Below are positions 8,252 through 60,966 of a DNA stretch of 64,000 nt, piece by piece. Under the pieces are notes generated by a model, which was given only the letters and a program-made list of their open reading frames with translations, searched no databases and had not been told where the DNA came from. The translations under genes were made by a program, and so were the position numbers. This stretch comes from Dokdonella fugitiva. GTDB taxonomy: Bacteria > Pseudomonadota > Gammaproteobacteria > Xanthomonadales > Rhodanobacteraceae. Positions within the stretch are counted from its first letter, which is position 1, and every line of letters starts with the position of its first letter. The stretch lies in contig NZ_JACGXL010000002.1 in assembly GCF_014138265.1 (NCBI RefSeq), positions 248,001-312,000 of the forward strand, in the 5' to 3' direction.

Positions 8252-11200
8252 ATGCATCGCCCGTCCGTCCCGCGAACGCTTCGCCTCGCCCTGCCGCTCG
8301 CCGGCCTGTGCGCGGTCGCGGCCGCCGCCGCGCCGCTGCCGCGTTTCGCGACGCATGAACTCACGCCGCTCGACTGCGCGCAGACGCCGTTCGGCCGCCA
8401 CGTCACGCTCGGCGGCGAAGCCGAGTACGTCGACCTCGTCGCGGCCGGTGCCGCGTTCAGCAACATCGACGAGTACCAGCCCGCCGCGCCGCCCGGCGAT
8501 CCGCTCGTGCGCACGTTCCGCACCGGCCTCCATCCCGGTGCGCTCGCCGGCAGCACTTTCCTCAAGGCGGTCAGCGTCGACCTCGACGGCGACGGCCGCG
8601 ACGAGGTCGTCACCGCGAATCGCGCAGCCGGCGGCGCGCTCGTGCTCGGCGTGTTCGAGCGCGGCGCGGGACCTTCGGCGAGCCTCGTCGACACCTGGAC
8701 GATGGCGCAGCCGTTCAACGTCGTCGACATGGTCGCCGGCGATTTCGACGGATCGACCGACCAGCAGCAGGAACTCGCGGTGCTCGTGCGCACGAGCACG
8801 TTCGGCCTGCGCCTGTTCGTGCTCACCGGTGCTGCGGGCGGCGGCATCGCCCAGGCCGACGGCGGCGCCGCGGGCGAGTGGGTGCGCAGCGACGCGGTCG
8901 GCCAGGTCAGCCTCGCCGCCGGCGACCTGCTGCTCGACGGCCGCGCGCAGATCGTCGTCGTCGACGAGAAGAGCTTCGGCGCGTCGCGCACGCTCGACTA
9001 CAACCTGCTCGAGTACCAGCCGGGCACGACGCAGTTGCCCGTCGCCGCGGGCGACAGCGCGATCGGCAGCAAGGTGTTCACGAGCGCGATCGGCATGACC
9101 TACCAGGCGGAGAACGGCTCGCCCGGCATCGACAACGTGCTCAAGCTCGAGGCGGACGCGGGCGACGTCGTCGACAGCGCCGCGGCCGAACTCGTCGTGC
9201 ACATGCAATTCGAGCAGTCGGGATACAACTACATCGGCGCGCGCCTGCACCACTTCACGACCACGCGCGACGGCGCCAACGTGATCACCGGCATCGGCTT
9301 CGCGAGCCGCGGCGCCGGCCAGGAATACGACTCGAGCCGCATCGTGCAGGGGCAGAACGAGGACGGCGTCGCGAGTTTCGAGGCGACCGTCGCCGACGTC
9401 GACCGCGTGTCGCCCGGCGAGATCGTGCTCGCGCGCGCGGACCCGAACTCGCGCCTGCAGGTGGACGTGTACAAGGCCGAGGTCGACCTCGCCGCCGGTT
9501 ACACCTGGGTCGAGAGCGGCATGGCGGTGCAGTTCACCAACACTTCGACCGGCGCGGTCGTGCAGCGCGACTGGAACTTCGGCGACGGCACCGGCCTCAT
9601 CCACGACCTGCACCCGACGCACCTGTATACCAGCGCGGGCAGCTACAACGTGAGCCTCAAGGTCACCGACGACGGCGGCGGCACGCGCACCTACGCGCAG
9701 ACGATCGCGGTGAGCGCGGGCGGCAGCGGCTCGGGCGGCAACGCGCCGGGCTACATGTACCACCTGCGCAGCTCGCCGAGCTACGCGGCGGGTTATGCCG
9801 TCGACAGCCTGCAGGCGCTGTCGTTCGTCAATGTCGCGGTCGGCGACATGGACAAGGACGGCATTCCCGAAGTCATGACGATCGCGCGCAACACGACCGA
9901 CACGCTGCTGCGCTCGGTCTGGCGCCTCGCCGACACGTCGGTGCCGGCGAGCTTCGCCGGTCGGCATTCCAGCGAGAGTTCGACCGCGTTCCCGGCGATG
10001 ACCGCGCTCGACCTCGTCGCGAGCGACTTCGACGGCGATTCGGTGCAGGCGACGCTCGGCACCGACTGCCGCCAGGTCGAGGAACCGCAGTTGCGCCAGG
10101 TGGTGTGGCTGCCGCCGTACTTCCAGCGCCTGCAGGCGTCCGCCGGCAAGCTCTCGACGTTCGGCGAATCGACCAGCGGCGGCTCGAGCTACGAGAAGCA
10201 GTCGGGCAGCTTCACGTCGCACGACGTGTCCGCGTACATCGGCGTCGGCGTCGGTTCCGACCTCGCCGGCGTGAACGCGTCGGTGCATGCGACCGCGGGC
10301 TACAACTACCAGTCGAGCTATGGCGCGATCCACGGCAGCGAGAACACCTTCACCGTCGACCAGGGCTACGCGCAGGACCACGGCGAGGCGCTCGCGGTGA
10401 TCGAGGAGAACAGCTTCAACTGCTACTCGTACCAGGTCGAGAGCGAGGCCGGCGGCGTCGACGGGGGCAGCGCGGTGCGCATGTGCGAGGTCATCGACGG
10501 CAGCCGCTTCATGTCGGCGAGCGACGCGCAGGCGTGGGACAAGGAGATCCCGGCCGCGTCGCCCGGCCATCCGCCTGCGCAGTGGATGCCGCTGCAGCGC
10601 GACTGGAACAGCATCGCGCTGTTCCGCCCGGTCGCGAGCAACGCCGCGTTCGCCGGCGGCAACGGCGCCGACAAGGCGACCGACGGCCTGTTCTCGACCG
10701 CGACCGAATCGAATGCGAGCTCGCAGCCGTACCTGCAGGTCGATCTCGGCGACGTGCGCGACGTGTCCAACATCCGCGTGTTCCCCGCGCACGGCGAGGA
10801 AGCGTCGCTGAAGGGCTTTCGCGTCTACGCCTCGGCGAGCCCGATGAACGGCGCCGGCGTGCCGTCCGGCGGTGGCGTGCGCACGTTCGCGCCGGAGACC
10901 GCGGACGATGTCGGCTTCGACCGCTGGAACATCTGGACGCGCGACGCCGCGAATCCGTCGACGATGCTGCGCGCGCGCTACATCCGCCTGCAGAATCCGG
11001 GCGCGGCGAGCCTGCACGTCGCGGAAATCCAGGTATTCGGCGACGTGCACGCCGAGCCGCCCGCGTATCCGGACGCGGTCTGCGACCCGGTTGCCGGCGA
11101 CGGCCTGTTCAACGCGTACGTGTGGGACGCGGCGCAGGCGACGTTCCGCAGCATCGAGGTGCGCGGCGACCTGCTCTGGAGCGGCGCCGGTTCGATGCCC

Positions 11201-11704
11201 GGCTGCACGAACTATTCGGGCCTGCTGCAGGCGTCGATCTGGCCGAACACCGTGGTCGGCGCGAGCGGCACGGTGACGTGGAACCTGAGCCAGGACGCGA
11301 GCACGCTCGTCGGCAGCAACACCAGCTTCGAGAGTTCGACGCGCGTCGGCGCCGAGTTCGACCTCGAGGCGGGCTTCATCGCGACGGTGCAGGCCGGCGG
11401 CGCGTACGAGTACACGCAGGGCATCACCGAAGACGTGCAGACGACGAGCTTCTGGGGCAGCGGCCTGGAGATCGGCGGCGAGATCAGCGGCTTCGATCCC
11501 GCCTACGCCTCACTCATCACGAGTTGCCGCTACAACCCGCGGCCGTACGCGTTCCATCTCGTCGACCTGTCGAACACGGGCTACCGGCACGACGTCTACG
11601 CGGTCGACTACACCGTGCACCAGGGGGCCGGCCTGTGGCAGCGCGGCGGCGTCCCCGTCCTGTGCCTGCACGACGACGCGATCTACGCGAACGGCTTCGA
11701 CTGA
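8252..11704 (+). CDS. large secreted FG-GAP/PKD/discoidin multidomain protein with GFD tail
   Basis: 1150 aa. A signal peptide (about 1-26) is followed by an FG-GAP/integrin-like region with Asp-rich loops such as DLDGDGRDE (about 111) and DMDKDGIPE (about 532). A PKD domain spans about 410-490 (WNFGDGTG, later SYNVSLKVTDDGG). A Gly/Ser-rich beta-hairpin-like segment covers about 636-720. An F5/8 type C (discoidin) domain lies at about 787-928 (DKATDG to AEIQVFG). A second beta-hairpin-rich segment covers about 1006-1083. The end is DDAIYANGFD. ATG at 8252 has GGGGAG just upstream. It is extracellular or surface-exposed, probably adhesion or carbohydrate binding; function is unknown. Confidence 0.85.
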   Translation: MHRPSVPRTLRLALPLAGLCAVAAAAAPLPRFATHELTPLDCAQTPFGRHVTLGGEAEYVDLVAAGAAFSNIDEYQPAAPPGDPLVRTFRTGLHPGALAGSTFLKAVSVDLDGDGRDEVVTANRAAGGALVLGVFERGAGPSASLVDTWTMAQPFNVVDMVAGDFDGSTDQQQELAVLVRTSTFGLRLFVLTGAAGGGIAQADGGAAGEWVRSDAVGQVSLAAGDLLLDGRAQIVVVDEKSFGASRTLDYNLLEYQPGTTQLPVAAGDSAIGSKVFTSAIGMTYQAENGSPGIDNVLKLEADAGDVVDSAAAELVVHMQFEQSGYNYIGARLHHFTTTRDGANVITGIGFASRGAGQEYDSSRIVQGQNEDGVASFEATVADVDRVSPGEIVLARADPNSRLQVDVYKAEVDLAAGYTWVESGMAVQFTNTSTGAVVQRDWNFGDGTGLIHDLHPTHLYTSAGSYNVSLKVTDDGGGTRTYAQTIAVSAGGSGSGGNAPGYMYHLRSSPSYAAGYAVDSLQALSFVNVAVGDMDKDGIPEVMTIARNTTDTLLRSVWRLADTSVPASFAGRHSSESSTAFPAMTALDLVASDFDGDSVQATLGTDCRQVEEPQLRQVVWLPPYFQRLQASAGKLSTFGESTSGGSSYEKQSGSFTSHDVSAYIGVGVGSDLAGVNASVHATAGYNYQSSYGAIHGSENTFTVDQGYAQDHGEALAVIEENSFNCYSYQVESEAGGVDGGSAVRMCEVIDGSRFMSASDAQAWDKEIPAASPGHPPAQWMPLQRDWNSIALFRPVASNAAFAGGNGADKATDGLFSTATESNASSQPYLQVDLGDVRDVSNIRVFPAHGEEASLKGFRVYASASPMNGAGVPSGGGVRTFAPETADDVGFDRWNIWTRDAANPSTMLRARYIRLQNPGAASLHVAEIQVFGDVHAEPPAYPDAVCDPVAGDGLFNAYVWDAAQATFRSIEVRGDLLWSGAGSMPGCTNYSGLLQASIWPNTVVGASGTVTWNLSQDASTLVGSNTSFESSTRVGAEFDLEAGFIATVQAGGAYEYTQGITEDVQTTSFWGSGLEIGGEISGFDPAYASLITSCRYNPRPYAFHLVDLSNTGYRHDVYAVDYTVHQGAGLWQRGGVPVLCLHDDAIYANGFD

Positions 11705-44240: not shown

Positions 44241-45479
44241 ATGTCCGTTGCCCGCTCGACCTGTCGCCCGATCGCCGCCGCCCTGCTGCTCGCCTTCGGC
44301 CATGCCGGCGCGGCCGCGATCATCGACGTGGACGTCGGTGGCGACGTGCACGTTTCCGGGCACTGCACGCTGCGCGAAGCGATCGCCGCCTCGAACACGC
44401 ACGCGAGCCCGGCCGACACGAAGTGCAGGGCAGGCAGCGACGGCGGCAACACGATCGCGATCCCGCCCGCGCTGGCGCCGATCGAGCTCGGCGGTGCGCC
44501 GCTCGATATTGCCGACGCCGGCGGTGAAACGACGATCCGCTCGGCCGTCAGCGGTGTGCGCGTGGACGTACGGCGGGTGTCCGGTTCCGGCTCGGTGTTC
44601 AGCGCGAGCCGGCCGGTCGCGTTCGAGGACGTGGCGATCTCGGGCGGCCACGGCGACATGGCAGGCGGCGGCATTTCCGCCGGCGCCACGACCGTTTCGC
44701 TGACGCGCAGCCGCGTATCGGACAACTGGTCGAACTACTTCGGTGGCGGCATCCTCGTCACCGACGGCAGCACGCTGACCCTCGTCGACAGCACCGTGTC
44801 GGACAACGCCACCGGCGACCTGGGCCTCGGCGGCGGCATCGCCGCGGACGACGCCTCGACGATCGTCCTCACGGGCAGCACGGTGTCGGGCAATACGTCG
44901 GGCGACGGCGGCGGCGTGTTCGCGTGGCGAGGGACGGTCAGCCTGAGGAACAGCACCGTGTCCGGCAACACCGCGACCGGCCAGGGCGGGGGCATCGCGA
45001 CGTACCAGGTCGACGGGCTCGACCTGATCCAGAGCACGATCACCGCCAACACCGCATCGGTGGGTGCCGGCATCCGACTCTACAGCCGCGCCGCGCTCGG
45101 CACGTCGGTGACCGCCTTCGGCAGCCTGCTCGCGGGCAACACCGGTTCGCCGGACATCGAGCACGCGAACGGCGCGGACGACGCCATCACCGGCGACCAC
45201 AACCTGATCGGCACGATCAGCGCGCACATCGCGTATCCGTCCGACACGCTGAGCTGCGACCCGCGTCTGCAGCCCCTCGCCGGCAACGGCGGTCCGACCG
45301 CGACGCACGCGCTCGCCGCTGACTCGTGCGCGCGCGACGCCGGCGGGTTCATGGCGTGGAGCAACTACGACCAGCGCGGCGAGGGCCATCCGCGATTCGT
45401 CGGCGATGCGATCGACATCGGAGCGTACGAGTACGCCGCCGCCGACACCGACCGCCTCTTCGCCGACGGCTTCGATTGA
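44241..45479 (+). CDS. secreted CSLREA-domain beta-helix protein with GFD tail
   Basis: 412 aa. Signal peptide (about 1-25), then the CSLREA-type N-terminal signature GHCTLREAIAASN (about 41-53). A right-handed parallel beta-helix follows with repeated SxxSDN and SGNTSGDGGGV motifs (about 120-330), and then the Asp/Cys-rich choice-of-anchor region (DHNLIGT, DTLSCDPRLQPLAGNGGPTA, DIGAYEY). The last residues are DTDRLFADGFD, the tail also found on the 1150-aa and cupredoxin proteins here. It is an extracellular adhesin or surface structure; no catalytic motif is evident. Start ATG at 44241. Confidence 0.8.
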   Translation: MSVARSTCRPIAAALLLAFGHAGAAAIIDVDVGGDVHVSGHCTLREAIAASNTHASPADTKCRAGSDGGNTIAIPPALAPIELGGAPLDIADAGGETTIRSAVSGVRVDVRRVSGSGSVFSASRPVAFEDVAISGGHGDMAGGGISAGATTVSLTRSRVSDNWSNYFGGGILVTDGSTLTLVDSTVSDNATGDLGLGGGIAADDASTIVLTGSTVSGNTSGDGGGVFAWRGTVSLRNSTVSGNTATGQGGGIATYQVDGLDLIQSTITANTASVGAGIRLYSRAALGTSVTAFGSLLAGNTGSPDIEHANGADDAITGDHNLIGTISAHIAYPSDTLSCDPRLQPLAGNGGPTATHALAADSCARDAGGFMAWSNYDQRGEGHPRFVGDAIDIGAYEYAAADTDRLFADGFD

Positions 45480-60198: not shown

Positions 60199-60966
60199 TC
60201 ACCCATCGAAGCCGTTTTCGAAGATCAGGTCGGGCGTATTGACGGTGAAACTGACCGGCAGCGTCAACGGGTCGTGAGCCACGTCGTTGCTGTGCACGCA
60301 TATGTTCGCACTGTACGCGCCCGGTGTCAGGCTGGTCGCGTCGAGGGTGACGCCGATGCTCGCGGCGACCCCGCCCGCGGCGATCGAGCCCGAAGTCGGG
60401 GCGAGCGCGATCCACGGCACGTCGACAGGCGCGACGCAGCCGGTCGAGGAGGTGTCGACCGTCCAGTCGAGGGTCGCGCCACCGGTGTTGGCGAGTTCGA
60501 ACCCGGTGGTCGCGCTGCCGCCGGCCTCCGCCGATCCGCTCACGCTGCCCGGCGTGACTTCGACGTTCGGCGTCGCCGCGGAGCCGACCGTGATCGAGCC
60601 GGCCATGCCGATGCCGCCGGAGCCACCATGGATTTCGCAGTAGTAGCCGATCGTCCCCGCGGTCGGGAACGTGACCGTGGCTTGCCACGCATTCGCCGAC
60701 GCGTCGCCGTTGCCGCTGCCGACGCCGTCGCAGCCGTCGGCGCAGCGGAATTCGGTGATCGCACCGTCGTCCGACTTCACGTTGTGGAAGCCGAGGCCGG
60801 CCGGGTCGTTCATGAACGTGACGGTGTCGCCGACCGCGATGGTCAGCGGCGAAGGCTCGAAATGACGTCCGCCGGGCCCGTTCTTGGCGAGCACGACGTG
60901 GTCCGCGGCGAACGCGGGGGTGGCGCAGAAAGCGAGGCTGGCGACGGCGAGAGCGGTACGACGCAT
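60199..60966 (-). CDS. exported cupredoxin with Ig-like domain and GFD tail
   Basis: 255 aa. Signal peptide (about 1-20, AFA-ADH). A plastocyanin-like domain (21-128) holds putative copper ligands H61 in GFHNV, C110 and H113 in YYCEIHGG, and a Met at 121; the His-Met spacing is longer than in plastocyanin, so copper binding is likely but not certain. Two extra cysteines (C75, C79) precede it. A beta-sandwich domain follows (about 134-245), and the end is TPDLIFENGFDG. It is the first gene of an operon with the ECF sigma factor and anti-sigma factor. Confidence 0.8.
   Translation of the reverse strand: MRRTALAVASLAFCATPAFAADHVVLAKNGPGGRHFEPSPLTIAVGDTVTFMNDPAGLGFHNVKSDDGAITEFRCADGCDGVGSGNGDASANAWQATVTFPTAGTIGYYCEIHGGSGGIGMAGSITVGSAATPNVEVTPGSVSGSAEAGGSATTGFELANTGGATLDWTVDTSSTGCVAPVDVPWIALAPTSGSIAAGGVAASIGVTLDATSLTPGAYSANICVHSNDVAHDPLTLPVSFTVNTPDLIFENGFDG

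Follow-up and report, generated by a model that had tools for sequence, protein, structure and literature searches.

A recurrent nine-residue tag on unrelated exported proteins of Dokdonella fugitiva, a candidate address label for a type II secretion system

Substrate choice by the type II secretion system (T2SS) is a long-standing open question, and the excerpts of the literature on which we draw here (PMC7949064; PMC12369372) state that no common linear signal is known. For PelI of Dickeya, the first of these excerpts describes an exposed nine-residue loop (loop 3) that acts as the T2SS signal and contacts both GspC and GspD (PMC7949064). For VesB of Vibrio, secretion needs the PDZ domain of EpsC and the Ig-fold serves as the recruitment signal, according to the second (PMC12369372). 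VesB, which bears a GlyGly-CTERM, is described there as a T2SS substrate (PMC12369372; see also PMC13393428), and a further excerpt describes MYXO-CTERM proteins as being sorted by T2SS (PMC11980579). Our search of the open-access literature found neither a tag shared among T2SS substrates, nor the motif described below, nor a Dokdonella sorting signal.

The window analysed here, a stretch of 64,000 nucleotides from Dokdonella fugitiva, encodes three exported proteins that end in closely similar peptides. An FG-GAP/PKD/discoidin protein of 1150 residues (8252..11704, plus strand; Pfam PKD_4, 5.5e-12, and F5_F8_type_C_2, 9e-7) closes with D-A-I-Y-A-N-G-F-D-stop (11675..11704, plus), and its homologue L201 (42% identity across 506 residues), from a different species of the genus, is tag-terminated too. 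A beta-helix/choice-of-anchor Q protein of 412 residues (44241..45479, plus; NCBIfam choice_anch_Q, 3.9e-18, with CSLREA at 0.0034, below that model's cut-off) ends in D-R-L-F-A-D-G-F-D-stop (45450..45479, plus). The third protein, a cupredoxin with a BACON-like domain (255 residues; 60199..60966, minus; Pfam Copper-bind, 8.5e-8, and BACON_2, 2.5e-6), ends in D-L-I-F-E-N-G-F-D-G-stop (60199..60231, minus), and its BACON_2 match stops short of the tag, at residue 228 of 255. An earlier note, made from this DNA, had pointed to these tails, and all are found: IYANGFD-stop at 11681-11704 and LFADGFD-stop at 45456-45479 on the plus strand, and IFENGFDG-stop at 60199-60225 on the minus strand. Its view of the carriers as unrelated is borne out by Pfam and NCBIfam (FG-GAP/PKD/discoidin, CSLREA-like/choice-of-anchor Q beta-helix, and cupredoxin plus BACON), and a home-made test gave signal-peptide-like starts on all three, in agreement with the signal peptides it had assigned. 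An aspartate stands at position -2 in every one of the three tails (DAI, DRL and DLI).

The tag recurs in its own genome (4.77 Mb in 13 contigs) far beyond chance. Compared with a reversed-pattern control, the general core pattern NTNTWYNNNRAYGGNTTYGAN gave 170 matches against 2, and a GC-rich version of the pattern 126 against 1. When 100 listed places of the GC-rich pattern were read in frame, 81 had 0-9 codons between motif and stop, and the stop followed directly in 26 of these 81 terminal copies; another 13 had 13-213 codons to the stop and 6 ran past the end of the fetched stretch, these two groups including copies inside proteins and near the mature N terminus. From the 170 core matches and the terminal share of 81 in 100, we estimate that well over a hundred proteins carry the tag, mostly once per protein and on exported proteins. 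Asp occupies position -2, which is not part of any search pattern, in 79 of 86 aligned terminal copies, and the resulting consensus in this genome spans nine residues, D-x-[IVL]-F-x-[DN]-G-F-[DE]. In some genera of relatives Ser or Arg replaces Gly, giving D-x-[IVL]-F-x-[DN]-[G/S/R]-F-[DE]. Searches of NCBIfam and Pfam gave no name for the tag. Some copies (L038, L044 and L045) have Cys at the x position and a second Cys several residues upstream (for example C-GRDDT-VYCNGFD), which suggests a disulfide-closed form.

Conservation at the base level is confined to the nine tag codons; past the stop codon, 20 sampled positions show almost none. Codon choice within the tag broadly matches that of the upstream body, the search pattern itself limiting some of the third bases. 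The tag is thus a selected protein motif rather than a DNA repeat.

By a home-made, lenient predictor, 54 of the 60 complete tagged ORFs contain, at some point along the frame, a signal-peptide-like start, in keeping with the Sec or Tat signal peptide expected of type II substrates. A bias towards exported proteins was also seen when tagged ORFs were compared with untagged coding-like neighbours, 41 of 47 against 37 of 77 having such a start by a crude, lenient predictor. The suggestion of the earlier note that the tail is a recognition-type tag on exported proteins is supported. The cargo itself is diverse. The 84 tagged proteins of set A2 match 57 Pfam families, none of which is present in more than 9 members, and among the 25 commonest of the 54 NCBIfam families matched, choice-of-anchor Q occurs in 15 of the 84. 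The NCBIfam matches listed also include an LPXTG-anchored peptidase family (2 of 84), a MYXO-CTERM-anchored family (1) and a rhombosortase-dependent family (1), and some of the carriers are adhesin-like (beta-helix, FG-GAP, DUF5122, fn3). Choice-of-anchor domains precede different anchors in different bacteria. In the present carriers the distance from the GAYE end of the choice-of-anchor Q domain to the tag is not constant.

Copies away from the C terminus are conserved between species. L015 and L217, its counterpart in a second species of the genus, both carry the tag directly behind the signal peptide. The S8 protease L068 and its counterpart L221 have it in an insertion that follows the catalytic-serine motif at a short distance, and their C termini are tagless. 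Relatives of these two proteases have only a short stretch at the insertion, and many of them have a tag-like C terminus. Among 15 members of the S8 family with the C terminus in view, L068 and L221 carry an internal copy only; the tag is terminal and strict in 4, terminal but degenerate, as judged by eye, in 7 (for example IFADDFE or LLINGFE) and absent from 2. A further 7 members ran off the locus. Of the genomes searched for this family with its moving tag (L275-L300), 14 of 19 tag-positive and none of 18 tag-negative ones had a member. The tag is retained despite diverged flanks in 15 pairs of homologues from two species, picked for a tag on both sides. Retention of the tag at shifting positions is hard to square with cleavage at the C terminus and speaks for an exposed linear motif. 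The comparison strongly indicates a short linear motif that would need no cleavage, displayed mostly at a flexible C terminus and also behind the signal peptide or in a domain insertion. The tag is very probably an exposed recognition tag for export or surface sorting.

Among 200 genomes of the order, the tag count is strongly bimodal by genus, and among 281 genomes drawn from the class, all 277 that lie outside the order have at most 7 matches, about background. A search of named species genomes with one exact GC-rich terminal form returned 24 stretches, 23 of them assigned to Lysobacterales or below and 1 only to Gammaproteobacteria; 14 of the 24 are labelled Dokdonella. The variant forms also read as C-terminal, at 10 of 10 places in a Ser-form genome and 8 of 10 in an Arg-form genome. 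One complete f9 genome (G019) has neither a GspD match nor a tag excess, unlike nearly all other f9 genomes examined.

The T2SS is present in the genome of D. fugitiva, which holds two classes of its secretin GspD (TIGR02517). GspD was the sole machinery family that we profiled, in 39 genomes (19 tag-positive, 3 Arg-form and 17 negative). A tree of 40 GspD sequences, built with the tag-bearing genomes G011, G028 and G051 left out, contains one clade of 19 rows (support 96/98), here called class A, which draws 16 rows from tag-positive and 3 from Arg-form genomes and none from tag-negative ones. Its nearest outsiders are two long-branched copies from tag-negative Lysobacteraceae, and class B GspD occurs both in genomes with the tag and in genomes without it.

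A class A profile (A1) and a variant-tolerant tag pattern were then applied to the same 200 genomes, a genome being called tag-rich at a net tag count of at least 10, a threshold of our own choosing (a threshold of 15 gave the same picture). Class A was scored in 101 of the 200, in 7 of them from partial matches assessed by eye on the basis of bits per aligned position; 9 Lysobacteraceae genomes with a sister copy were scored as lacking it, and the tables were compiled by hand from pattern and profile counts. Outside family f8, the 123 genomes with a completeness of at least 95% comprise 58 with class A, of which 55 are tag-rich, and 65 without it, of which 2 are (55 both, 3 class A only, 2 tags only, 63 neither). 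Adding f8 gives 140 genomes of this completeness, of which 56 have both, 4 class A only, 11 tags only and 69 neither; for all 200, fragmented ones included, the corresponding numbers are 92, 9, 24 and 75. Within the Rhodanobacteraceae (f1), tag-rich genomes make up 5 of 5 with class A and 0 of 29 without. In f2 the only genome with class A reaches a net count of 84, and a count of at least 10 is seen in 1 of the 34 others. A stricter-variant table at threshold 8, for which Arg-form counts came from just 63 genomes, sorted the 140 genomes at least 95% complete into 56 with both features, 6 with the tag alone, 3 with class A alone, 71 with neither and 4 in between. The genera g24 and g63 are informative: class A is present and DGF[DE] tags are few, the tag being mostly of the Arg form instead. 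This form gave 10-89 matches, against 0-3 in the control, for 18 of 21 g24 genomes and for the single g63 genome; its counts are low in G089, G183 and G197 (1, 4 and 8 matches).

In f8 (34 genomes) the association fails, a net count of at least 10 being reached by 2 of the 6 that have class A and by 16 of the 28 that lack it (p 0.39). Two f8 genomes, G063 and G097, are 97 and 98% complete and have terminal tags without class A. Across G063, G097, G122 and G171, none of which has class A, 24 of 51 matches were read, and 17 of these 24 distinct places are terminal, two of them in very short frames; such tags may belong to a different reader or be a relic. Class A is accompanied by a net count under 10 in G082, G064, G089 and G183. 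Outside f8, tags without class A occur in G086 and G123. The tag-rich G123 is an assembly of 530 contigs, and the 10 Ser-form matches of G086, a member of the Lysobacteraceae (1 in the control), are perhaps a repeat family. The co-occurring translocon that the earlier note had proposed to look for has a candidate in the class A T2SS, which tracks the tag outside f8, but the f8 genomes do not follow. Independent co-losses are few, because tag and class A both follow phylogeny; we count about 3, read from family and genus labels without a species tree. Other genes lost alongside the two would correlate equally, and the association is a correlation, not proof. As class A goes with the tag in most relatives, the tag may be an address label for the class A system.

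The class A cluster of D. fugitiva includes, in this order, gspC, gspD, gspE, an ORF on the opposite strand and gspF. The ORF between gspE and gspF (L123:15486-16922, minus) encodes 478 residues with no Pfam match and, by eye, a signal-peptide-like start. Class A GspD resembles the canonical solved T2SS secretins, and class A GspC has an HR region followed by a C-terminal PDZ domain, which aligns across the 18 genomes of A3 and matches PDB entries of the PulC and EpsC PDZ domains. The class B GspC-like protein of the same genome (L124) is about 200 residues long and, judged by eye only, ends after an HR-like part. In Xanthomonas XpsC the corresponding region is described, in the excerpt used here, as a single predicted helix with no PDZ (PMC11981180). 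A PDZ domain is not sufficient, since the related GspC of tag-negative G061 also has a PDZ-like end. Canonical PDZ ligands present a free C-terminal carboxylate at a fixed distance. The tag departs from this, with 0-9 residues after the terminal motif and some copies internal, and this variable spacing would require either a non-canonical mode of PDZ binding or another reader.

To account for these observations, we propose, at a probability of about 0.4, that this T2SS uses a true linear address tag, its PDZ-bearing GspC (with GspD) recruiting a hundred or more unrelated folded proteins through one nine-residue motif at any position in the chain. The portable tag would be exposed in the periplasm on the exported protein and bound there by the PDZ domain of class A GspC, perhaps together with the N-domains of the secretin. 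Binding might take the form of an added strand with a turn at [DN]-G, and the tag-bound folded protein would then be recruited and handed to the secretin for export. The class A T2SS is the likeliest reader of the tag, which we put, whatever the details, at about even odds.

The alternative that deserves most weight is a docking tag. Whatever the route by which the proteins pass the outer membrane, the tag would afterwards bind a receptor in that membrane or in the matrix, so that they stay cell-bound, and class A would merely be co-inherited. Position independence would fit such a docking role, as would cargo that is partly adhesin-like or in anchor-named families and f8 genomes that keep some tags without class A; against it stand the tight correlation with class A outside f8 and the lack of any known receptor, and we consider it rather unlikely. 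A sorting signal removed by a soluble or membrane protease in the manner of a sortase, in line with the cleavage system that the earlier note considered, is improbable by comparison. The per-genome abundance recalls PEP-CTERM or MYXO-CTERM, and 81 of the 100 listed copies do lie within nine codons of the stop. However, no hydrophobic helix or basic end accompanies the motif, at most nine residues following it in those copies, and cleavage at the conserved N-terminal or internal copies would behead or split the protein. As the same note had stated, the tail is not a PEP-CTERM, GlyGly-CTERM or LPXTG signal: none of the NCBIfam sorting models matched any of ten tails scanned, the only NCBIfam match being, once, to the preceding choice-of-anchor Q domain (choice_anch_Q). 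Terminal sorting models were likewise absent from the 25 commonest of 54 NCBIfam families on the 84 whole tagged proteins. A tripartite sorting signal is rejected on anatomy and on the ten-tail scan. C-terminal cleavage was also our first working idea, dropped given the N-terminal, linker and internal copies; the conserved tags behind the signal peptide (L015/L217) and within the protease domain (L068/L221) speak against a cleavage system tied to the C terminus, and the tag is probably not a cleaved C-terminal signal.

Marginally less probable again is a stability cap that shields flexible C termini from periplasmic tail-specific proteases. The acidic residues before and within the tag and its usual terminal position would suit this role, which leaves unexplained the specific aromatic core, the N-terminal and internal copies and the bimodality between genera. 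Least credible of all is that the peptide is the last strand of a common domain, or that a DNA repeat happens to encode it, for which nothing speaks beyond recurrence itself. The folds differ, with 57 Pfam families over 84 proteins, the GAYE-to-tag spacer is of variable length, and conservation of the DNA ends at the tag; a buried strand and a DNA repeat are both rejected on this fold diversity and tag-limited conservation.

If the proposed linear address tag for T2SS is correct, it would contradict the view that T2SS signals are structural and without common sequence, and the tag would predict from sequence alone much of the secretome of many poorly known Lysobacterales. It would also offer a short peptide for functional tests, grafting and crystallography of T2SS recruitment. 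Should the tag instead serve for docking, it would define an unknown surface-display system.

T9SS C-terminal domains, folded units of about 70 residues, and LPXTG signals, which depend on a helix and a sortase, mark exported cargo for delivery to the surface. Neither a T9SS nor an LPXTG model was among the matches of the ten tails. The GlyGly-CTERM/rhombosortase, MYXO-CTERM/myxosortase and PEP-CTERM/exosortase systems place C-terminal tags on many exported proteins too. These signals are described, in the excerpt cited, as tripartite, with a transmembrane helix and a basic end, and as cleaved (PMC11980579), whereas the present tag has no helix and no basic end and also occurs away from the C terminus. 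The likeness to PelI and VesB lies in an exposed nine-residue loop or a portable domain, with secretion information read by GspC, through its PDZ domain for VesB and together with GspD for PelI. In the excerpts on which this comparison draws (PMC7949064; PMC12369372), each of those signals is shown for one substrate with its homologues and is regarded as structural, whereas here one motif is spread over many unrelated proteins.
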